The position numbers were made by a program, and so were the translations under genes. DNA of 64,000 nucleotides from Devosia sp. (GTDB lineage Bacteria; Pseudomonadota; Alphaproteobacteria; Rhizobiales; Devosiaceae), in NCBI RefSeq assembly GCF_017744655.1, contig NZ_JAGIAW010000001.1:620001-684000 (forward strand). Reading direction: 5' to 3'. Below the pieces are notes generated by a model. The model saw only the letters and a program-made list of their open reading frames with translations, searched no databases and had not been told where the DNA came from. Positions 2,124 through 29,811 of this stretch are shown one piece after another (the first letter of the stretch is position 1; every line of letters starts with the position of its first letter).

Positions 2124-2273
2124 GGGACAAATTCGGTCCCGCAGGAATTAGATAAAACTTGAACTAAATTGCACGTTTTGCCGAGAGAGGCCCGCAGCTT
2201 TTGGACACTAAACCTGATTTCGCCGGCAAGAAACGCCGGAAGAAAACAAAATCTGGTACAGGAAGTCCAAACA
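2124..2273 (+). promoter_or_regulatory. Conserved flagellin upstream/leader block, copy 2
   Basis: Homologous to 1081-1229. The upstream palindrome is here GCGGGAC-aaattcg-GTCCCGC (2122-2142); compared with copy 1 the stem differs by paired changes (GGGCC/GGCCC versus GGGAC/GTCCC), so symmetry has been kept while sequence changed. The downstream leader, including CCGGC-aagaaac-GCCGG (2223-2239) and the ribosome site, is identical over about 75 bases. It lies beyond the terminator of the preceding gene. Confidence 0.65.
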
Positions 2274-3074
2274 ATGTCCGCAGTAAATCTCGCCTCCTCC
2301 ACGCGCTTCGGTCTTACCGCTCTCCGTAACGTTGCAGAGCAGATGGAAGTCTCCCAGAAGCGTCTGGCCACCGGCAAGGCCGTGAATACCGCTCTGGATA
2401 ACGTTTCGAAGTTTTTTACTGCGTCCAAGATGGATGGCCGCGCCGCCTCTATCGACACTCTTCTTGACAGCGTCAACAATGCACAGACGTCGTTGAAGGC
2501 CGCAAGCGAAGGCATCAAGGGTATCCAGGGCATCGTCAAGCAGGCCCGCGCCCTGACTGGCCAGGCTCTTGCCACCTCCGATACCGCCAGCCGCCTGGCA
2601 CTGTCGACCCAGTTTGAAACGCTGACCGCGGAAATCGCCAAGGTCGTCACTGACTCCAAGATCAACGGCACGAACCTTCTCAACAACGAGAGCATCACCG
2701 TGACCCTCAACGAGGACGGCACCAGCAAGACCACGATCGCCGGTGTCACTGTCGGTACCATCGCTGCGACGGCAAACGACTGGGCGGCGGAAGCGGACAT
2801 CAAGGCATCGGTCGATGCTCTGAACACTTTCAGCACGTCTCTTGAAACGGCAGCGACCTCGTTTGGCACCAGCCAGGCCCTGATCAGCGTCCGCAAGGAT
2901 TTCAACAGCGCGCTGTCGAACATTCTGAAGACTGGCGCATCGGAGCTGACCGCCGCCGACATGGATGCTGAAGCTGCTAATCTCATGGCGCTCCAGACCC
3001 GTCAGCAGATGGCGTCCACCGCCCTCTCGATCATGCAGTCCACCGAGTCGACCGCTCTGCGTCTCCTCCGTTAA
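2274..3074 (+). CDS. Flagellin, tandem copy 2
   Basis: Filament subunit of 266 residues, about 94 percent identical to the preceding copy by direct count (16 differences). Differences cluster around residues 105-125, in the central patch near residues 180-210 and close to the C-terminus; the export and polymerisation helices are unchanged. The start ATG has the same CAGGAAGT ribosome site as copy 1. The duplication includes about 150 upstream bases, so gene and promoter were copied together. A terminator follows directly. Confidence 0.96.
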   Translation: MSAVNLASSTRFGLTALRNVAEQMEVSQKRLATGKAVNTALDNVSKFFTASKMDGRAASIDTLLDSVNNAQTSLKAASEGIKGIQGIVKQARALTGQALATSDTASRLALSTQFETLTAEIAKVVTDSKINGTNLLNNESITVTLNEDGTSKTTIAGVTVGTIAATANDWAAEADIKASVDALNTFSTSLETAATSFGTSQALISVRKDFNSALSNILKTGASELTAADMDAEAANLMALQTRQQMASTALSIMQSTESTALRLLR

Positions 3075-7610: not shown

Positions 7611-8018
7611 TCAGAAGCCGAAGACGGTGGTTATGCCGCTCTGACCATCGCCGTTCTGCTGGCACTGGGCATTGGTCGCCTGCCCGAACTGGAAGAGGCC
7701 GCAGGTATTGTCGTTGCCGTTCTGGCTGATGGTACCGTTATGGCCATTGCCGTCCTGGAAAATCACGCCCGAATTGTTCGAGCCGTTCTGGTTGAAGCCG
7801 GCAGAGTTGAAATTGCCGTTCTGGAAGGCATTGCCGCCATTGGCCGACATGCCCTTGACGACGGAAAACATCCGGAGGCCAAGACCGAGCGCCTGGGCCT
7901 GGTCGGGATCGGTGGGCGAGAAACCGAGCGAAATCTGGCCGCCAGCCATGGCGGGCGAAATGCCGATGATGAGGGCGGCGACGGCGGCGGCGACAGTCTT
8001 GGTGAAGGTGGCGGTCAT
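7611..8018 (-). CDS. Curlin-repeat protein, CsgB/CsgA-like
   Basis: Secreted protein of 135 residues with a signal peptide (cleavage near SPAMA-GG) and curlin-type repeats rich in Asn/Gln/Gly (NGNFNSAGFNQNGSNNSG, FQDGNGHNGTISQNGNDN). Such repeats stack into amyloid fibres on the cell surface. The region before the repeats, with only one Met-Phe-rich linker, is not repeat-like, so it may be a minor subunit or nucleator. It is the last of three minus-strand genes with the CsgH-like and curlin genes, but has its own upstream region and terminator. No CsgE, CsgF or CsgG exporter gene is present in the window. Confidence 0.8.
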   Translation of the reverse strand: MTATFTKTVAAAVAALIIGISPAMAGGQISLGFSPTDPDQAQALGLGLRMFSVVKGMSANGGNAFQNGNFNSAGFNQNGSNNSGVIFQDGNGHNGTISQNGNDNTCGLFQFGQATNAQCQQNGDGQSGITTVFGF

Positions 8019-8116
8019 TTCAAAATTCTCCAAAGCGTTTGTGCGTTCCCGGTGCTGGTCTTCCAGCTCATGAAACGAGATTAGCCAGCCTCGACTGAAC
8101 CCATCCGGAGCGGCGC

Positions 8117-8135
8117 ATTCAGACTTCGTTCACGG
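8117..8135 (-). promoter_or_regulatory. Shared upstream motif, distal curlin gene
   Basis: On the minus strand CCGTGAACGAAGTCTGAAT, 99 bases before the start of the 8018 gene. Almost the same sequence lies 93 bases before the other curlin gene (9209-9228). Likely a binding site for a common regulator, identity unknown. Confidence 0.5.
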
Positions 8136-8148
8136 AATCCTTCGCGGC

Positions 8149-8177
8149 AAAAAAAGAGCCCCGGCCGAAGCCGGGGC
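8149..8177 (-). terminator. Terminator after csgH-like gene
   Basis: On the minus strand GCCCCGGC-ttcg-GCCGGGGC is followed by TCTTTTTTT. It separates the curlin/csgH pair from the distal curlin-repeat gene. Confidence 0.88.
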
Positions 8178-8245
8178 AGGTCTTGGGTCAGGGGAAGGTC
8201 ATCCCGACCGCTTCGTCGCGGGGCACGCAACGAACTGGAATGCGC

Positions 8246-8626
8246 TCACGTCCGCGTCGCAGTCTGCGAGCAGTCGAACGTCTTGCCATTGGCGGTCACG
8301 GTGAAATCCACGCTGACATTGGAGCCGGCATTGATCATGACCTGACCGAGCGAGACTTCTGCATTGGGTGCGGCGGAAAACTGGCCGCCCTGGCTGATAT
8401 TGGTCGAGCCACCGCCGCCGGCGCTCTTGAGCGCAAAGCGGTATTGGCCCGATAGGGCCGTGGGGCTCACCAGTGTTCCCTCAAGGGCGAGCATGCCGCC
8501 CTGGGTCTTACTGATAACGCCACAGGCAAAGTCGCCCCCCGCCGCCGCATTGGCATTGGCGGCAAAACCGATGGCAGTAATGGCCGCGGCGGCCGCGATC
8601 GTGGTTTGGATGAGTGGGTGAAGCAT
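8246..8626 (-). CDS. csgH: CsgH-like curli assembly chaperone
   Basis: Predicted periplasmic protein of 126 residues. CsgH proteins of alphaproteobacteria are small immunoglobulin-like chaperones that keep curli subunits from polymerising before export. Visible features are a signal peptide ending in ANANA, a small beta-rich body (GQYRFALKSAGGGGSTNISQ, then GGQFSAAPN), and two cysteines (FACG near the N-terminus, FDCSQ near the C-terminus) that could form a disulfide. AGGAGG precedes the ATG. It is 55 bases downstream of the curlin gene with a hairpin between, which fits one transcript with unequal yields. Confidence 0.75.
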   Translation of the reverse strand: MLHPLIQTTIAAAAAITAIGFAANANAAAGGDFACGVISKTQGGMLALEGTLVSPTALSGQYRFALKSAGGGGSTNISQGGQFSAAPNAEVSLGQVMINAGSNVSVDFTVTANGKTFDCSQTATRT

Positions 8627-8648
8627 GTCGTCCTCCTGATGAATGGAA

Positions 8649-8669
8649 GGGGCCGGCGGCGCCGGCCCC
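8649..8669 (-). other. Strong hairpin between curlin and csgH genes
   Basis: GGGGCCGGC-N3-GCCGGCCCC, a perfect 9-bp stem right after the curlin stop codon. There is no T-run on the minus strand, so it looks like a 3' stabiliser or attenuator rather than a full terminator. Confidence 0.6.
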
Positions 8670-8681
8670 GCTTCGCAGAGG

Positions 8682-9116
8682 TTACGGGCAGGCCTGCACG
8701 AAGGCGGTCACGTTGCCCGAGCCATGCTGGGTGACATTGGCGTTGCAATTGTTGCCGACCTGCACGCCGGCGGCGACATTGCCGTTGCCGTCCTGGGTCA
8801 CGACCGCGGTGTGGTTGTTGCCGAACTGGCCGACGCCACCCTGGTTGTTCCAGCCGTTCTGATAAACGTCGCCGTAGTTGTTGTTGCCCTGCTGGCCGAT
8901 GGCCGAGACATTGTTGCCGCCATACTGCTGGCTCACGGCGCTGTTCCACCAGCCGGTCTGCTTGGCGCCAAAAGTGTTGTTCCAGCCGGACTGGCCGCCG
9001 CCGACCGAGTTACCGAAGCCGGTCTGGTCGATAAAGATGCCGCCGGCCATGGCGGGAGCGGCGGAAGCCGCGATAACGGTGGCAGCGACGGCGGTGATGA
9101 TGAACTTGCGGATCAT
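8682..9116 (-). CDS. Curlin-like amyloid subunit, CsgA-type
   Basis: Secreted major-subunit candidate of 144 residues. A signal peptide (cleavage near APAMA-GG) is followed almost at once by Asn/Gln/Gly curlin repeats: QTGFGNSVGGGQSGWNN, QQGNNNYGDVYQNGWNN, QFGNNHTAVVTQDGNGN, QVGNNCNANVTQHGSGN. The regular Gln-X-Gly and Asn spacing is the curlin amyloid signature. Two cysteines (NNC and the penultimate Cys-Pro) are unusual for curlins and could be oxidised to cross-link the fibre end. AGGAGA precedes the start. First gene of the curlin-csgH pair. Confidence 0.85.
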   Translation of the reverse strand: MIRKFIITAVAATVIAASAAPAMAGGIFIDQTGFGNSVGGGQSGWNNTFGAKQTGWWNSAVSQQYGGNNVSAIGQQGNNNYGDVYQNGWNNQGGVGQFGNNHTAVVTQDGNGNVAAGVQVGNNCNANVTQHGSGNVTAFVQACP

Positions 9117-18262: not shown

Positions 18263-18428
18263 CCTTGCCTGAGGCCAAATTTTCGTCGCTGCGGAGGCTC
18301 TTCCACCCCCTCCGCGTAATCGGACGTTAAGCATGCCCGATTAGGTTTGTGCCTAGTCTTTTTGTCGTTGGTGTTTTCCGCATGCGCGGGGTTCCCAGCA
18401 CTGCGTCGGGCAGGTGGAAGTCGTGAAA

Positions 18429-21400
18429 ATGACCAGCAAACCGGGTTGGCTGCGGCCACGCAATATTCTTGCTGCGGCCTTACTGTCGGTCAGCCTGATG
18501 TCTGTTTCGCTCGCTATGGCCCAGGAGCAGGCGCAGTTCTTCGCCACCCAGGAAGAAGGCTACGGCCGCCTCGTCGTCAGCTTCCCGGATCGCGACACTA
18601 TGCCTGCCTATGCCATGCGCATGAGCAATGGCGTTCTCTCGCTCGAATTCCAGGAGCCGATTTCACTCGTCCTGCCTGACGTCGCCTCGATCATGCCCGA
18701 ATATCTATCCGTGGCGCGGCTCGATCCGGCCGGCACGGGCCTCCGCATCGGCCTGCGTACCACGCTCAATTTCAACCGCACCGAAGCGGGTACAAAACTC
18801 TTCATCGACCTCCTGCCGCCCGATTGGCAGGGCTCGCCACCGCCGCTGCCGCAGGACGTGCTCGACGAAATGGCCGAGAAGGCCCAGCGCATCGCCCTGC
18901 GCGACGACCAGAAGCGCAAGGCGCAGGTCGTGGCCGAGCAGAACCCGATCGCCAGCCTCCGCATCGGCCGCAATCCGACCTTCATGCGCCTGCAGTTCGA
19001 TTGGACCATTCCCACCGGCGGCACTTTTGACTTCTCCGGCGAGCAAGGCCGCATCGATTTCGAATGGCCGGTCAATATCGACCTGCGCGAATTGCTGACC
19101 GATCTGCCCTCCGAAATCGTCTCGGCCAAAAATTCGGTCACTCTCGATGGCAGTGCCGTCGAAATGAAGTTCGGCCGCGGCGTCACTCCGCGGTTCTATT
19201 CGACCGGGCCCAACCAATATGTGCTCGATATCGACATAGCGGGCGAGGGGCTGCCAGAATTCTCCGCCGCCGCATTGGCCTCCGAACTGCCCGCCAGCGC
19301 CCCTGCCGCCGAGGGCCAGCAGCCGGGTGTCGTGGTCGCAGGCAGCGACCTGACCGCCACCGATCCCGAAAAGATCACCCCGTTCGTCACGACGCTGGGC
19401 AGCACCGTCCGCGTCGTCTTCCCCTTCGTTCAGGAAACGCCCTCGGCCATCTTCCGGCGCGGCGACTCGGTCTGGCTGGTCTTTGACACGCACAGCGCCA
19501 TCCAGCTTCCCGAAGAGCTCGAAAAGCTCTCTGACATCTCGAGCGAATTCGTCGTCACCACTATCGACGATGCGCAGGTGGTTCGCATCGATCTCTCGCA
19601 GGATCGGCTCGCCACCATCGGTTCGGAAGGCCAGGCCTGGGTTCTTTCGCTCGGCGATGTCATGATGGCGCCGACCGAGCCCATGGAACTGACCCGCCGC
19701 CGCGATATGCGCGGCGATTTCGAGATGACCGCCAATATGGTCCGCCCCGGCCGCGTTCATGATTTCCAGGATCCGCTGGTCGGCGATCATCTCAGCGTCA
19801 TCACCGCCTATCCACCGGCCCGCGGCATTACCCGCTCGCTCGACTATGTGGATTTCTCCGCGCTCCAGAGCGTTCATGGCCTCGTCATCCGTCCCAAGGC
19901 CGACAATCTCGAAGTCGCGCTCGAAAACGCCCTTGCCGTCATCACGGCGGACGAGGGGCTGGAAGTGTCGTCCACCGACACGCTCCGCCAGGACCTGCCG
20001 TCCTCGGCCCCCAGCCAGCGCGCCAGCTTCATCGATTTCGATCCCTTGCAGCAGCCCGATTTCGCGCTCTTTGCCAAGCAGCGCGACGAGCTGGAAGCAA
20101 CCGCCGCCGCCAGCGATGGCCGCGCCCGTGATACGGCCCGGCTCGACCTCGCCAATTTCTTCATCGCCAACGGTCTTTCCCACGAAGCGCTCGGCATTCT
20201 TCGGGTAATCGGGGAAACCCAGCGCAATGAGGAAGTGCTCAACAAGGTCCAGATGAGTGAGGCCGTCGCCAATATCATGGCCGGCCGCCCCAAAGACGCG
20301 CTGATGCGACTCAATGGCTCGAACATGGACCAGGACATCGACGCGATGTTCTGGCGCGCCATCGCCCGCTCGCAGAATGGCGACTATGCCGGCGCTCGTG
20401 CCGACGCCACCCAAGCCTATTCCATCATCGACAGCTACCCATCCTGGGCGCGCGAAAAATTCCTCCTGGCCGCCACGCGCGCGGCCGTTGAGGAGCACTA
20501 TGCCGATCAGGCCCAGGAGATGATCGGCGACGTCGTCTTCGCCGCGCTCAACCCCGATCAGGTCGGCGAGTTCAGCCTGCTCTCCGGCCGTATCGCCGAG
20601 GAGCAGGGGCGTCTTGATGCTGCCATCGACATGTACGGTCAGGCCATCGCCACCGAAATCCGGCCGGCCCGCGCCGAAGCGGTTTATCGCACCCTCGGCA
20701 TTCTCGACAAGCAGAAGCGCCTCGACGTGGTGCGCGGTGCGCAAACCCTTGCCGCCGAAGCGCTGCTCTGGCGCGGCGATGCCCTCGGCGCCGATATGCA
20801 GGGCATGCTGGCCGACCTCTATTTCCGCACCGGCGAATATCGCCAGGGTTTTGAATCGGTCATGGCCGCCGTCGCCAGCGACCCGGAAAGTCGCGACGTG
20901 CAGGCCCTGAGCGATCACGCCCAGCGCATGTTCAACGATCTCTTCCTCAATGGTCTCGCCGATTCCATCGATCCAATCGCGGCACTCGGCATCTATTACG
21001 ACTTCCGCCAGCTCACCCCGCCCGGCGCCCGTGGCGACGAAATGATCCGCAATCTGGCGCGGCGCCTCGTGCGCGTCGACCTGCTGCCGCAGGCCGCCGA
21101 ACTCCTGCAATACCAGCTCGACAACCGCCTGCGCGGCGTTGCCCGCACCGAAGTCGCCTCCGATCTCGCCGTCATCTACCTCGCCGAACACAAGCCGGCC
21201 GAAGCCATGCGCGTGCTCAATGACACGCGCCTTCCTGACCTCTCCGGCACGCTCGCCCGCCAGCGCCGGATTCTCGAAGCCCGCGCTCTGCTCGATGGCG
21301 GCCGCGACCAGCTCGCGCTCGATCTCGTGCGTGATCTCAGCGGCCAGGACGTCGAACTCATGCGTATCGACGCCCATTGGCAGGCCAAGCGCTACGCCCA

Positions 21401-21776
21401 GGCTGGCCAGTTCATCGAACAGCTTTATGGCGCAACGCCAGCCGGCGTGCCGCTCACCAAGGCCGCCCGCATGGGCATCCTGCAGGCCGGTGTCGGCTAT
21501 GCCCTTTCCAACGACGCTGCCGGCCTTGCGCGCCTGCGCTCCAAATATTCCGATGCCATGGTCAATTCGCCGGAATGGCCGATGTTCGACTATGTCACCG
21601 GCCCGATCGAAGTCACCAGCACCCAGTTCCGCCAGGTCGCCCAGCAGATCGCCGCCGTCGACGGCCTCGAAACCTTCCTCGCCGCCTATCGCGACGTCTA
21701 CGAAAGCCAGGGCGCGCTTACACCGATATCGGCGAGTGAAGAGGACGGCGGGTCGGTGGCGTCGCTCAGCGAGTAG
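18429..21776 (+). CDS. Large periplasmic TPR protein linked to flagellar operon
   Basis: Protein of 1,115 residues with a signal peptide (LLSVSLMSVSLAMA-QEQ). The first 500 residues look beta-rich with repeated modules (LRIGRNPTFMRLQFDW, FVTTLGSTVRVVFPF) followed by a long alpha-helical part with TPR-like units (about 560-1050). TPR superhelices act as protein docking platforms. Similar large proteins lie after the fliL-fliM-motE genes in related genomes, which suggests a role in motor or envelope assembly, but no function is proven. A GTG at 18414 or 18423 is an alternative start. It has its own upstream region behind a terminator. Confidence 0.8.
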   Translation: MTSKPGWLRPRNILAAALLSVSLMSVSLAMAQEQAQFFATQEEGYGRLVVSFPDRDTMPAYAMRMSNGVLSLEFQEPISLVLPDVASIMPEYLSVARLDPAGTGLRIGLRTTLNFNRTEAGTKLFIDLLPPDWQGSPPPLPQDVLDEMAEKAQRIALRDDQKRKAQVVAEQNPIASLRIGRNPTFMRLQFDWTIPTGGTFDFSGEQGRIDFEWPVNIDLRELLTDLPSEIVSAKNSVTLDGSAVEMKFGRGVTPRFYSTGPNQYVLDIDIAGEGLPEFSAAALASELPASAPAAEGQQPGVVVAGSDLTATDPEKITPFVTTLGSTVRVVFPFVQETPSAIFRRGDSVWLVFDTHSAIQLPEELEKLSDISSEFVVTTIDDAQVVRIDLSQDRLATIGSEGQAWVLSLGDVMMAPTEPMELTRRRDMRGDFEMTANMVRPGRVHDFQDPLVGDHLSVITAYPPARGITRSLDYVDFSALQSVHGLVIRPKADNLEVALENALAVITADEGLEVSSTDTLRQDLPSSAPSQRASFIDFDPLQQPDFALFAKQRDELEATAAASDGRARDTARLDLANFFIANGLSHEALGILRVIGETQRNEEVLNKVQMSEAVANIMAGRPKDALMRLNGSNMDQDIDAMFWRAIARSQNGDYAGARADATQAYSIIDSYPSWAREKFLLAATRAAVEEHYADQAQEMIGDVVFAALNPDQVGEFSLLSGRIAEEQGRLDAAIDMYGQAIATEIRPARAEAVYRTLGILDKQKRLDVVRGAQTLAAEALLWRGDALGADMQGMLADLYFRTGEYRQGFESVMAAVASDPESRDVQALSDHAQRMFNDLFLNGLADSIDPIAALGIYYDFRQLTPPGARGDEMIRNLARRLVRVDLLPQAAELLQYQLDNRLRGVARTEVASDLAVIYLAEHKPAEAMRVLNDTRLPDLSGTLARQRRILEARALLDGGRDQLALDLVRDLSGQDVELMRIDAHWQAKRYAQAGQFIEQLYGATPAGVPLTKAARMGILQAGVGYALSNDAAGLARLRSKYSDAMVNSPEWPMFDYVTGPIEVTSTQFRQVAQQIAAVDGLETFLAAYRDVYESQGALTPISASEEDGGSVASLSE

Positions 21777-24566: not shown

Positions 24567-25361
24567 CTAACTCGTAAAACTTCGCACCAGCGAGCCAACG
24601 ACCAGATACCAGCCGTCCACGAGCACGAAGAAGATCAGCTTGAAGGGCAGGGAGATGACCACCGGCGGCAGCATCATCATACCCATGCTCATCAGCACCG
24701 AAGCGACGACCATGTCGATGATGACAAACGGCAAAAACAGCAAAAATCCGATTTCGAAGGCGCGGCGCAGTTCCGAGATCAGGAAGGCCGGAATCAGCAG
24801 CTGCAGCGGAATGGCTTCCGGCTCGGCCGGGATTTCCGCCTCGGTCAGGTCGTAGAACAGTGACAGATCCTGTTCGCGCACATTGGCGCGCATGAAGGCA
24901 TGGAGCGGCGCTACGGTCGGCTCAAAAGCCTCGGAAATCTCGATTTCGCCGGCCAGCAGCGGCGCGATGCCGTTATTGTAGCTTTGCTCCAGCGTCGGCT
25001 GCATGATGAAGAAGGTGAGGAACAGCGCCAGCGAGATCATCACCGAATTCGGCGGTGCGGTTTGCAGGCCAATGGCCGTGCGCAGCAGCGAAAGCACGAC
25101 GACGATGCGCGTAAAACTCGTCACCATCACGAGGATGGATGGCGCTAGCGACAGGATCGTAAGAAGGCCGATGAGCTGGATGGCGCGCTCGGCCAGAGCC
25201 GTGTCGTCGCCGAAGCCAATGGACAGTTCCTGCGCCTGGGCAATACCCATGCCGACAAGCGTCAGGCCGGCCGCGATGGCCAGGCCGATCAGGGCGCGCT
25301 TCTTGAGGCGCGCCCGCGCAGCACTAGTTTCGGTTGCTCTCGCCCTGCGCTTCGTGATCAC
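24567..25361 (-). CDS. fliP: Flagellar export gate protein FliP
   Basis: Core channel protein of the flagellar type III export gate (FliP5-FliQ4-FliR1). The 264 residues show a cleavable signal (GLAIAAGLTLVGMGIAQA), four membrane helices and the family motifs LSLAPSILVMVTSFTRIVVV, MISLALFLTFFIM and IDMVVASVLMSMGMMMLPP. The start is probably the GTG at 25361, inside fliO, giving a 38-base overlap; no other start precedes the signal peptide. In an operon with fliO, divergent from flgB. Confidence 0.93.
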   Translation of the reverse strand: MITKRRARATETSAARARLKKRALIGLAIAAGLTLVGMGIAQAQELSIGFGDDTALAERAIQLIGLLTILSLAPSILVMVTSFTRIVVVLSLLRTAIGLQTAPPNSVMISLALFLTFFIMQPTLEQSYNNGIAPLLAGEIEISEAFEPTVAPLHAFMRANVREQDLSLFYDLTEAEIPAEPEAIPLQLLIPAFLISELRRAFEIGFLLFLPFVIIDMVVASVLMSMGMMMLPPVVISLPFKLIFFVLVDGWYLVVGSLVRSFTS

Positions 25362-26239: not shown

Positions 26240-26647
26240 ATGGGGTTGATGGACATGCCGGTGTTTTCGGCGCTGACGGACAAGATGCGCTGGCATCAGG
26301 CCCGTCAGGGTCTTCTGGCCGAGAACGTCGCCAACGCGGACAATCCTGGCTTCAAGGGGCGCGATCTGAAGCAGTACAATTTCGAGGACCGTTTCAGCGT
26401 CGTGCAGGCGCCGGTCGTCAGCACTGTTGCGACTCAGCCTAGGCACTTTTCGACCTCTATCGGCGGCGGCACAAGCTTCACCGACGACAAGATGGTCAAT
26501 TTCGAGATCACGCCGAAGGGAAACGGCATCACCCTCGAAGACGAGATGATGAAGGTCACGACCAATATGATGGACTATCAGGCCGCGACCTCCCTCTACC
26601 AGAAATCGGTCAAGATACTGAAGACCGCACTCGGCAAGACCGCTTAA
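26240..26647 (+). CDS. flgB: Proximal rod protein FlgB
   Basis: Rod subunit nearest to the MS-ring. The 135 residues include the rod motif MRWHQARQGLLAENVANADN with PGFKGRD and the C-terminal segment MMDYQAATSLYQKSVKIL. CAGGAG precedes the ATG at 26240; an upstream TTG would add seven residues without a ribosome site. First gene of flgB-flgC-fliE-fliQ-fliR-flhB. Confidence 0.95.
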   Translation: MGLMDMPVFSALTDKMRWHQARQGLLAENVANADNPGFKGRDLKQYNFEDRFSVVQAPVVSTVATQPRHFSTSIGGGTSFTDDKMVNFEITPKGNGITLEDEMMKVTTNMMDYQAATSLYQKSVKILKTALGKTA

Positions 26648-26662
26648 GAAAGGGCCTGATCC

Positions 26663-27073
26663 ATGGATTTCAATACTTCTATCGGCATCGCCGCCACGGG
26701 CCTGCACGCACAGTCGGCCCGCATGCGCGTCATCGCCGAAAATATCGCCAACGCCGACTCCACGGCGACCACGCCGGGCGGCGAACCCTATCGCCGCCGC
26801 GTTCCCACCTTTGAAACGGTGATGAACAACGAGCTTGGCGGCCGCGTCGTCACCATGGGCAAGCTGGCCTATGACCAGAGCGACTTCAACAACCGCTACG
26901 AGCCCGGCCACCCGGCCGCCGATGCGAACGGTTACGTTCAATACCCCAACGTCAACACACTGATCGAGACGATGGACATGCGCGAGGCCCAGCGCAGCTA
27001 TGAGGCCAATCTCAACGTGGTTTCCGTAACCCGCCAGATGCTCGGGCAAACGCTCGACATTCTCCGCGGCTGA
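26663..27073 (+). CDS. flgC: Proximal rod protein FlgC
   Basis: Rod subunit of 136 residues, partner of FlgB. N-terminal rod signature IAATGLHAQSARMRVIAENI with ANADST, and C-terminal EAQRSYEANLNVVSVTRQML. Located 15 bases after flgB with an AAAGGG ribosome site. Confidence 0.96.
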   Translation: MDFNTSIGIAATGLHAQSARMRVIAENIANADSTATTPGGEPYRRRVPTFETVMNNELGGRVVTMGKLAYDQSDFNNRYEPGHPAADANGYVQYPNVNTLIETMDMREAQRSYEANLNVVSVTRQMLGQTLDILRG

Positions 27074-27093
27074 CGGTTCTGGGGGCAATCATC

Positions 27094-27588
27094 ATGGCGT
27101 CAACACCCTTCAATATCGCAGCAGCGGCCTATGGCAATGCCAGCCGCCTCGCGTCGCAGATCAGCCGTCCCGAAGCGGAAGCCGCAATCGCCGGCGTTGC
27201 CGGTGGCCCCAACTTCGCGCAGATGCTGGCCCAGTCGGTCCAGTCCGTGACCGAAAGCGGTCGCGCCGCCGATCCGACGGCCATCGCCACCCTGAGCGAT
27301 GCCGCGACCCGCATGCTGACCCAGGCTTCTCAGCCCGGTGCACAGTTAGGCACCAATCCGGGTAATGGCGGCAATGACTTCGCCGCTATGCTGGCCCAGT
27401 CGGTCCAGGGCGTCGTCGATCAGGGCCGCCAGTCGGACCAGATGGCCATCGACATGGTCAATGGCAAGGCGAACGTGGTCGACATGGTCACCGCCATGTC
27501 CCAGACCGAATTTGCCATCGAAAGCATCGTGACGATCCGCGACCGCGTGATCCAGTCCTATGAATCGATCATGAGCATGCCGATCTAG
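27094..27588 (+). CDS. fliE: Hook-basal body protein FliE with an internal duplication
   Basis: Junction protein between MS-ring and rod. The C-terminal half is a normal FliE (VVDMVTAMSQTEFAIESIVT, then RDRVIQSYESIMSMPI). The protein is 164 residues, longer than the usual 100-115. The extra length comes from a repeated segment: residues 40-69 (NFAQMLAQSVQSV, then GRAADPTAI) resemble 95-124 (DFAAMLAQSVQGV, then GRQSDQMAI) with 15 of 30 positions identical. The copies are also similar at DNA level (both contain ATGCTGGCCCAGTCGGTCCA). The function of the second unit is unknown. Confidence 0.93.
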   Translation: MASTPFNIAAAAYGNASRLASQISRPEAEAAIAGVAGGPNFAQMLAQSVQSVTESGRAADPTAIATLSDAATRMLTQASQPGAQLGTNPGNGGNDFAAMLAQSVQGVVDQGRQSDQMAIDMVNGKANVVDMVTAMSQTEFAIESIVTIRDRVIQSYESIMSMPI

Positions 27589-27614
27589 TCTTCCACCGAA
27601 GTGTGAGTGGGGGC

Positions 27615-27627
27615 GGCAGGATTTGCC
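27615..27627 (+). promoter_or_regulatory. 13-bp flagellar element (GGCAGGATTTGCC), fliQ copy
   Basis: Fourth exact member of GGCAGRWYTTGCC, 59 bases before the fliQ start in the 97-bp fliE-fliQ gap. No CtrA box or sigma-54 element is next to it, so it may act on a weak internal promoter or as a downstream site. Confidence 0.5.
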
Positions 27628-27685
27628 ACCTCAGGCGTTCAGGAATCAGTTACCATTTGCGGGTGACCGCATGGGAAATTGAGTC

Positions 27686-27952
27686 GTGACCGGCGCTGAA
27701 GTCCTCGACATTGCCAATCAGGGTATCTGGACGCTGATCATCGTGTCCCTACCGATGATGCTGGTCGGCCTTGTCGTCGGCGTCGTCATTGCCCTCTTTC
27801 AGGCCCTGACGCAAATCCAGGAACAAACCCTGGTCTTCGTTCCCAAGATCATCGCCATCTTCGTCACCATGTTGCTGACGCTGCCGTTTCTCGGCGCCAC
27901 TATGTCGGCCTATATGACGCGGGTTGTCGATATGATCATCGTCGGCGGCTGA
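27686..27952 (+). CDS. fliQ: Flagellar export gate protein FliQ
   Basis: Small gate subunit with two membrane helices, 88 residues. Family pattern: LIIVSLPMMLVGLVVGVVIA, ALTQIQEQTLVFVPKI and the tail. GTG start. Its stop shares a base with the fliR start, so the two are translationally coupled. Confidence 0.94.
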   Translation: MTGAEVLDIANQGIWTLIIVSLPMMLVGLVVGVVIALFQALTQIQEQTLVFVPKIIAIFVTMLLTLPFLGATMSAYMTRVVDMIIVGG

Positions 27953-28722
27953 TGTTTACGCTCAACCTCGACTGGGGGCCTGCGGCAGCGTTCACCTATC
28001 TCATCCTCTTCGCCCGCATCGGCGCCATGCTGATGCTGATGCCTGCGCTCGGCGAAGACACGATCCCGATGCGGTTGCGTCTTGCCTTCGGGCTCACCTT
28101 TACCTTTGTGCTCTATCCTTTGCTCTCCAGCATCATGCCCCCCATGCCGCAGGATATTCCAGGCATGGTGGCGCTGCTTTTTCACGAGCTGGCCGTTGGC
28201 CTCATCATCGGCGGCATTGTGCGCATCACCACCATGGCGACGCAGATCGCCGGTGCCATCGTCGCTTTTCAGGCTGGCCTTTCCGGCGCCATGGCGGCCG
28301 ACCCGACCCAGCAGGGCATGCAGAGCGCGGTTTTTACGAGCTTCCTGTCCTTCCTCGGCATCACGCTGATCTTCGCCACCGATTTGCATCACATGGCGCT
28401 TGCGGCGATCTATGACAGTTATGACGTGTTTTCGCCGACCATGCCGATCATGTCGGAAGACGCCATGCAGCTGGCTCTTAAAACAGTCGCAGGCGCCTTT
28501 TCGGTGGGCGTGCAGATGTCCGCACCCTTCATCGTCTTCGGCCTCGTCTTCAACCTCGGCGCCGGCATCCTGTCGCGCCTGATGCCTCAATTGCAGGTCT
28601 ATTTCATCCTGATGCCCGCCAATATCCTGGCCGGGCTGGTTCTGTTTGCTCTTTTGCTCATGATGATGATGGGGTGGTATCTCTCCGCCTTCGAAAATCA
28701 TCTGGCTATGTGGCGGGGGTAG
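27952..28722 (+). CDS. fliR: Flagellar export gate protein FliR
   Basis: Single-copy gate subunit of 256 residues with six hydrophobic helices. Characteristic segments are ILFARIGAMLMLMPALGEDT, ELAVGLIIGGIVRITTMATQ with AGAIVAFQAGL, and the C-terminal ILAGLVLFALLLMMMMGWY. Starts on the fliQ stop (TGATG). Confidence 0.94.
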   Translation: MFTLNLDWGPAAAFTYLILFARIGAMLMLMPALGEDTIPMRLRLAFGLTFTFVLYPLLSSIMPPMPQDIPGMVALLFHELAVGLIIGGIVRITTMATQIAGAIVAFQAGLSGAMAADPTQQGMQSAVFTSFLSFLGITLIFATDLHHMALAAIYDSYDVFSPTMPIMSEDAMQLALKTVAGAFSVGVQMSAPFIVFGLVFNLGAGILSRLMPQLQVYFILMPANILAGLVLFALLLMMMMGWYLSAFENHLAMWRG

Positions 28723-28725
28723 TCG

Positions 28726-29811
28726 ATGGCCGACGAAGCCCCGGAGCAGGACAGCAAAACAGAAGACCCTTCCCAAAAGAAGCTTGAGGAAGCCCATAAG
28801 AAAGGCGACGTCGCCAAGAGCCAGGAGGTCACCACCTGGTTCATGCTGATCGGCACGACCATCGTCTTTGCCTCCATGGCGCCATGGGTGTCGACCCAGA
28901 TCAGCAATCCCTTGCAGATCATCATGATGAATGCCGATCGCTTCAACGTCGAAGGCTCGGGGTTTTCGGCCTTTTTTAATGGTCTGGCTTTCTCGATGAT
29001 CGGCGCCGTGCTGGCGCCGCTGGCCGTACTCTATGTTTGCGGCATCCTCGCCAATCTCGTGCAGCATCGGCCACTGTTCTCGGCCGAGCCCATCACTCCG
29101 AAATTCTCGAAAATATCTCCGCTCGCCGGGGCAAAGCGCCTGTTTTCAACCGACGCTTTGGTCAATTTCGGCAAGGGCCTCTTGAAGATCGCCGTGGTCG
29201 GCATCGTCGTCGTCATGGTGGTCTGGCCCGAGCGAGATCGCCTCGACACCATGATGACGGCTGACCCCATCATCATCCTGATGGATTTCCAGGAGCTTGG
29301 CGTAAAGATCCTGACCGCCGTGCTCATCGTGGTCACCTTCATCGCCGCCGCCGACTATTTTTACACCCGCCAGAAATGGTGGAAGCGGCAGATGATGACG
29401 GTCCAGGAAACGCGCGAAGAATACAAGCAGATGGAAGGCGACCCGCACGTCAAGGGCCGCATCCGCCAGTTGCGCCAGGAGCGCGCCCGCAAGCGCATGA
29501 TGCAGGCCGTGCCCGACGCCACCGTGGTCGTCACCAACCCGACCCACTACGCAGTCGCCCTCAAATACGACAAGGGCATGGGCGCGCCCAAATGCGTCGC
29601 CAAGGGCGCCGATGCCGTGGCCCTGCGCATCCGCACCGTGGCCAAAGAAAACGACGTCCCGATCATCGAGAATCCGCCTTTGGCCCGCGCGCTCTTTGCC
29701 TCGGTCGATGTCGACGACGACATTCCCGCCGATCACTACAAGGCCGTCGCCGAAATCATCGGCTTCGTCATGCGCCTCAAGCATGGCCAGAGCTGGAAGG
29801 CGCGGGGGTAG
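28726..29811 (+). CDS. flhB: Flagellar export switch protein FlhB
   Basis: Inner-membrane protein that controls substrate switching from rod/hook to filament export. The 361 residues have four membrane helices and a cytoplasmic domain with the self-cleaving NPTH motif (Asn271-Pro272) in VVTNPTHYAVALKYD. The N-terminus is the usual EDPSQKKLEEAHKKGDVAKS. Three bases after fliR. flhA, normally a partner, is not in the window. Confidence 0.96.
   Translation: MADEAPEQDSKTEDPSQKKLEEAHKKGDVAKSQEVTTWFMLIGTTIVFASMAPWVSTQISNPLQIIMMNADRFNVEGSGFSAFFNGLAFSMIGAVLAPLAVLYVCGILANLVQHRPLFSAEPITPKFSKISPLAGAKRLFSTDALVNFGKGLLKIAVVGIVVVMVVWPERDRLDTMMTADPIIILMDFQELGVKILTAVLIVVTFIAAADYFYTRQKWWKRQMMTVQETREEYKQMEGDPHVKGRIRQLRQERARKRMMQAVPDATVVVTNPTHYAVALKYDKGMGAPKCVAKGADAVALRIRTVAKENDVPIIENPPLARALFASVDVDDDIPADHYKAVAEIIGFVMRLKHGQSWKARG

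Follow-up and report, generated by a model that had tools for sequence, protein, structure and literature searches.

A conserved in-frame duplication lengthens the spacer of the flagellar protein FliE in one branch of Devosia

FliE is a small protein that connects the rod of the flagellum with the motor ring. The fliE gene of the genome analyzed here, from the soil bacterial genus Devosia, encodes a protein of 164 residues that carries a duplicated spacer unit, whereas the usual FliE has 100–120 residues and one spacer between helix 1 and helix 2. It is nearly certain that the long form stems from one real, conserved duplication of single origin. The protein most likely still works as a FliE, with its added helices lying between the rod and the ring wall, because both of its ends are kept, a carrier species is listed as motile, and the genome holds a single fliE match. 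The gene was found in a window of 64,000 nucleotides, which is the whole stretch of DNA that was analyzed. Its product lies above the cut-offs of PF02049 (73.8 bits, cut-off 22.4) and TIGR00205 (53.8 bits, cut-off 30); the usual length of the protein has no place in the formal definition of FliE. The gene and its repeat are laid out as follows.

27094..27588 (stop codon included), plus strand: fliE, long form, 164 amino acids, assigned by PF02049 and TIGR00205
27139..27303, plus strand: duplicated unit 1, residues 16–70, from the self-match and the unit tree
27304..27468, plus strand: duplicated unit 2, residues 71–125, directly abutting unit 1, from the self-match and the unit tree
27212..27289, plus strand: best-kept DNA of unit 1, 78 nucleotides
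27377..27454, plus strand: best-kept DNA of unit 2, 78 nucleotides, 71% identical to the unit 1 stretch at a spacing of 165 nucleotides

The initial annotation had proposed an internal tandem duplication in fliE, and the self-comparison of the protein bears this out. The best ungapped self-match scores 102 at an offset of 55, and none of 1000 residue shuffles was as good (mean 28.4, s.d. 4.9, maximum 52). The top self-match among the single-copy FliEs of the genus is 31. The similarity thus goes beyond a chance likeness of Ala/Gln-rich helices, which is ruled out by the score of 102 against the shuffle maximum of 52. The count of 15 identities over 30 positions between residues 40–69 and 95–124 was correct, as was the claim that the DNA of both units contains the same 20-mer, ATGCTGGCCCAGTCGGTCCA (27223–27242 and 27388–27407). 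The 30-residue repeat that had been described is real, but its extent was drawn too small: the true unit comprises 55 residues, with the copies arranged head-to-tail and in register without a gap between them (23 of 55 residues identical). Each unit runs from the end of helix 1 across the linker and into the first part of helix 2. In an alignment with short relatives, the long FliE shows a 55-residue insertion after residue 19, and it is the linker of copy 2, not that of copy 1, that resembles the usual linker of short FliEs.

Over their whole 165 nucleotides, the two units are 54% identical in DNA. The 20-mer occurs in both units in three of the 13 genomes with a long form, and the peptide LAQSVQ is kept in both units in all 13. 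A shared 20-mer hints at a recent duplication; we rejected a recent event because the units are only 54% identical and the event is older than the split of the 13 genomes. As a separate observation, each of the 13 genomes uses one codon type for the serine of LAQSVQ in its two units, namely TCN in nine genomes and AGC in four. This paired switch suggests possible local gene conversion between the units.

In Salmonella, helix 1 of FliE binds the MS ring and helices 2 and 3 form D0, whose hairpin places FliE in the rod; the N- and C-terminal parts are described as critical when properly spaced (PMC8546590). Also in Salmonella, six copies per motor are reported, and FliE is reported to dock on FliF and open FliPQR (PMC8546590, PMC12403130). 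In the long form, the N-terminal segment is present once, as is the C-terminal part corresponding to the D0 hairpin, and only the spacer between them grows, from approximately 20 to approximately 75 residues. Counted from Leu19, the first Phe of D0 comes 22 residues further on in the short form L005 (Phe41) and 77 in the long form (Phe96). The segments of the long protein are given below.

27094..27150, plus strand: conserved N-terminal segment, residues 1–19, most of helix 1 (dN/dS 0.03)
27208..27267, plus strand: predicted extra helix, residues 39–58, copying the beginning of helix 2 (AlphaFold, low confidence; holds GPNFAQMLAQSVQ)
27274..27330, plus strand: predicted extra helix, residues 61–79, spanning the junction of the units and holding the copied end of helix 1 (AlphaFold, low confidence)
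27376..27585, plus strand: C-terminal part, residues 95–164, whose Salmonella counterpart makes up the D0 hairpin of helices 2 and 3 (sequence conservation and low-confidence AlphaFold)

AlphaFold predicts helices at residues 7–24, 41–67, and 73–105 for the short form L092 (mean pLDDT 62.6, pTM 0.28). For the long form, helices are predicted at residues 6–23, 26–36, 39–58, 61–79, 95–122, and 128–160 (mean pLDDT 54.5, pTM 0.21). Both models are of low confidence, and that of the long form is usable for the helix pattern, not for the geometry or the placing of the helices. The predicted order is helix 1, a partial copy of helix 2, a helix with the copied end of helix 1, and the usual helices 2 and 3. 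This layout bears on the idea that the stoichiometry or symmetry of the ring–rod junction has changed, for example through a second rod-like domain in each FliE. The extra unit does retain the start of the helix-2 sequence, which is part of D0 in Salmonella. However, the final 50 residues are conserved and occur only once; helix 3 has no second copy, and therefore a second D0 hairpin cannot form. In addition, the matched lengths of FlgB, FlgC, FliQ, FliR, FliF, FliM, and FliP overlap between genomes with long and short FliE. A changed stoichiometry is thus very unlikely, and the altered junction between the MS ring and the rod envisaged by the initial annotation found no support.

The length of FliE was compared at three taxonomic levels. 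Our genus survey covered 75 species-level genomes, 73 of which have a fliE match; the two without one, G047 and G089, are both listed as 98–99% complete, and G089 has a size of only 2.0 Mb. The long form was found in 13 of the 73 (159–164 residues, apart from one truncated to 156 at the edge of its contig) and the short form in 60 (106–117 residues, apart from one truncated to 90 in the same way). The expectation that FliE normally has about 110 residues therefore holds within the genus. All 13 long forms share the same start position and an in-register repeat of 54–55 codons. These 13 species-level genomes, together with the shuffle test, refute the idea that the long form is due to misassembly, a misassigned start codon, or a chance helix likeness; the probability of that idea is practically nil. 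Among the best 80 of 479 loci from a named collection, 10 are long, all from Devosia, and the named species with a long FliE include D. riboflavina, D. soli, and D. crocina. Four of the named loci lie on the same contigs as genus genomes by their coordinates (L082 and G060, L084 and G023, L088 and G014, and L089 and G046). Because the named records are largely the same assemblies, what they contribute is names, not further independent cases.

In the order sample, PF02049 matched in 188 of 249 genomes. Among the 150 matches listed, 15 have an open frame of at least 150 codons, namely the window, G036, and 13 others. The likely starts of these 13 give proteins of 102–108 residues; two of them also have a far upstream GTG (249 residues in one, 253 and 393 in the other) without a ribosome-site motif. 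Thus, only the FliE of the window itself reached 150 residues among the 150 order matches listed. In the phylum sample, 194 of 249 genomes matched, and 16 of the 150 matches listed have a frame of at least 150 codons, four of these being common to the order set. For the other 12, the first ATG gives 96–126 residues and no product from a common start exceeds 147; none of the phylum matches listed proved to reach 150 residues. The length comparison that had been proposed at the outset accordingly ruled out a long form universal in the order, by the 13 of 73 in the genus and by the order sample; the start-codon lengths ruled out a long FliE elsewhere in the phylum among the matches listed.

The long form is a derived trait within the genus. 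On a tree of FlgB, FlgC, FliQ, and FliR, the 13 genomes with a long FliE form one clade with an SH-aLRT support of 100 (one change, quick search), and no short form lies inside it. The 12 long-form genomes used on an eight-gene tree of 30 genomes also form one clade (bootstrap 100). The first units of all 13 long forms group together as well (support 99/100), on a unit tree of 55 columns whose bootstrap had not settled. The 13 genomes and their 13 first units each group as a clade, and therefore a single duplication that predates the diversification of the group is most likely. The paired serine codons described above had suggested two independent duplications at one hot spot in the two subclades, an idea that we rejected on account of the clade of first units.

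In the ancestor of the Devosia branch that includes D. riboflavina, D. soli, and D. crocina, a 165-nucleotide stretch of fliE was duplicated in frame and head to tail, and the added copy has since been kept. Most single-copy genes have a 12-nucleotide near-repeat at both ends of this stretch. The codons for G-N-A-S (14–17) and G-K-A-N (69–72) are near-repeats in these genes, mostly GGCAATGCCAGC and GGCAAGGCCAAT, at a spacing of 55 codons in 22 of 58 genes and 56 codons in 19 of 58. Equally good matches are rare in many of these genes (in L005, 22 of the 19,965 12-mer pairs compared), but the near-repeat is weak in others, and the mean share of equally good 12-mer pairs across the 58 genes is 3.4%. 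Recombination or slippage between such short near-repeats (GGCAAnGCCA) flanking the stretch could have produced the duplication. The inferred ends of the units fall on the near-repeat pair, and therefore the evidence for this route is good, though indirect, and the pair is the likely recombination site.

Duplications in the same region are known from two other settings. Salmonella revertants of fliE deletions carry an in-frame tandem duplication there (Sasias et al., cited in PMC8546590), attributed in PMC8546590 to recombination between 5 bases; by analogy, they appear to have arisen as the Devosia duplication may have, between short shared bases. They differ from it in that their 30-base duplication restores a deleted protein to near-normal length, 100 residues (PMC8546590), whereas in Devosia 165 nucleotides were added to a protein of normal length and the duplication occurred in nature, is old, and has been conserved. 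In another family of the order, the FliE of L080 (G036) likewise contains an in-frame head-to-tail duplication between helix 1 and helix 2. That event is separate and shorter (25 codons), and the protein has 127 residues in all. This duplication of 75 nucleotides is located at positions 1744–1893 of L080, with the gene on the minus strand, and its copies are 71% identical.

We estimated dN/dS as pooled Nei-Gojobori values over the 12 complete long forms; the values are rough because the pooled pairs come from related genomes. Beyond the very low value of the N-terminal segment, in which TPFNIAA.AYGNASRL is invariant across the 12, dN/dS is 0.27 for residues 20–74 and 0.15 for residues 113–164. 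The helix of unit 1 (residues 40–57) has a value of 0.20, compared with 0.28 for the matching helix of unit 2 (residues 95–112). The linkers of both units evolve fast (approximately 0.35), as a passive spacer would. In unit 1, GPNFAQMLAQSVQ is invariant across the 12 complete long forms. Because of the low dN/dS and this invariant stretch, the substitution pattern indicates that the extra unit is under purifying selection and is not decaying.

These values also bear on a neutral expansion, in which the FliE spacer tolerates changes of length, and the longer version was fixed by chance and kept because loss is rare or because the protein adjusted to it. The fast linkers agree with such tolerance, as does the independent 25-codon duplication of L080 in the same region. 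Spacer deletions in Salmonella can be rescued by internal tandem duplications, and the account in PMC8546590 gives the middle of FliE as a part in which single-residue defects were not found. However, the invariance of GPNFAQMLAQSVQ and the dN/dS of the unit 1 helix were read as too strict for a dispensable spacer, and the clade of 13 contains no reversion to a short form. Moreover, no other FliE of at least 150 residues occurs among the matches listed (150 each in the order and the phylum), and therefore the spacer is usually held near one length. We regard neutral expansion as possible but not probable.

According to the reading that we prefer, the protein would still function as an ordinary FliE, and the added unit would lengthen its tether and supply two short helices, one similar to helix 2 and one ending similarly to helix 1. 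The added helices would lie in the gap between the rod and the ring wall and make further contacts, with FliF, a neighboring FliE, or FlgB/FlgC; the gain would be extra contacts rather than extra FliE subunits. Taken as a whole, this mechanism is moderately probable. One fliE match is present in the genome of the window and one in that of D. riboflavina (G060), whose fliE is a long form. The strain of L082, IFO 13584, is presumably the same type strain as DSM 7230. In Table 5 of PMC4838601, D. riboflavina DSM 7230 is listed as motile with several polar flagella; for D. soli, both traits have the entry ND. The open-licence literature searched yielded no expression, motility, or structural data for the long FliE itself. 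A stronger version, in which the added part of each FliE acts as another functional module facing the ring, is unlikely. If true, the helix-2-like and helix-1-like copies would attach to additional sites on the MS ring, which is 34-fold, or bridge neighboring FliE subunits; the ring contacts made by six FliE subunits would roughly double, FlgB and FlgC would be adjusted to the change, and the rod anchor would be rebuilt and stiffened with the subunit number unchanged.

The surroundings of the gene are those of an ordinary fliE. The order flgB-flgC-fliE-fliQ-fliR-flhB extends over 26240–29811, and fliP is close by on the other strand.

26240..26647, plus strand: flgB, proximal rod partner of FliE (NF004654, 140 bits against 142; TIGR01396, 50 against 59; its best profile matches are FlgB, yet just below both cut-offs)
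26663..27073, plus strand: flgC, proximal rod partner of FliE (TIGR01395, 152 bits, cut-off 102)
27686..27952, plus strand: fliQ (TIGR01402, over cut-off)
27952..28722, plus strand: fliR (TIGR01400, over cut-off)
28726..29811, plus strand: flhB (TIGR00328, over cut-off)
24567..25361, minus strand: fliP (TIGR01103, over cut-off)

The long protein resembles ordinary FliE in passing both model cut-offs, in its place between flgBC and fliQR-flhB, and in the conserved sequence of its N-terminal segment and of its C-terminal D0 region. It differs in length by approximately 55 extra residues, and the stretch between the end of helix 1 and the middle of helix 2 is present twice, the second copy being conserved. 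Three other features were observed in the window. Two adjacent flagellin genes with similar starts are located at 1158–2030 and 2169–3074. At 7611–9116, the flagellar cluster contains two curlin-repeat genes, a CsgH gene, and an adjacent peptidase M32 gene, bordered by genes that we take to be flgI and flgH. A protein of 1120 residues with weak tetratricopeptide matches is encoded at 18414–21776, in the flagellar cluster downstream of fliM and a DUF6468 gene.

The partner proteins were compared in 12 of the 13 long and 18 of the 60 short genomes, with regard to compensating changes in FlgB, FlgC, or FliF after the duplication. On the stem of the long-FliE clade, relative to the amount predicted from the other flagellar genes, FlgC changed 2.36 times as much, which ranks first of 29 branches, and FlgB 1.63 times as much (sixth of 35), compared with 0.54 for FliR and 0.1 for FliQ. 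A single rank-1 result is unsurprising because ten proteins were compared, and the housekeeping controls AlaRS and IDH are poor yardsticks because their stem lengths are near zero on the fixed tree. Fixed clade-specific residues number four in FlgC and three in FlgB, of 136 columns; per site, both proteins have more of them than FliF, FliM, FliP, FlgF, FlgG, FliQ, and FliR. In contrast, there is no stem excess in FliF (1.05), FliP (0.83), FlgF (0.92), or FlgG (0.75), and FliM, which is not known to contact FliE, has a value of 1.26. The last 70 residues of FliE itself show a stem change of 1.13 times expected. Clade-specific change in FliF affects 5 of 544 columns, too little to point strongly to a matching change of the ring. 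At residue 324 of FliF, all 12 long genomes have Lys, compared with 1 of the 18 short ones. This residue adjoins residues that align, by hand count, with R370 and I372 of Salmonella FliF, which we take to be structure chain 6scn_A. These two residues are reported to touch FliE (PMC11481574). A link between Lys324 and the long FliE is a hint only, and the excess change of FlgC and FlgB is likewise only a hint of co-evolution. Compensating changes in the rod partners or the ring after the duplication are, on balance, somewhat unlikely.

The long Devosia FliE is a natural variant of a well-known protein that was not reported before in the literature searched; in the portions of the open-licence literature consulted, we found no report of FliE lengthening by duplication in Devosia. 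The holding of a helical rod inside a 34-fold ring rests largely on FliE. Here, its spacer has been lengthened naturally and with a single origin, by half the usual length of the protein, and at least one carrier is reported to be motile. With the short-FliE relatives in the same genus serving as controls, the spacing rule of FliE and the contents of the gap between the rod and the ring wall become directly testable.
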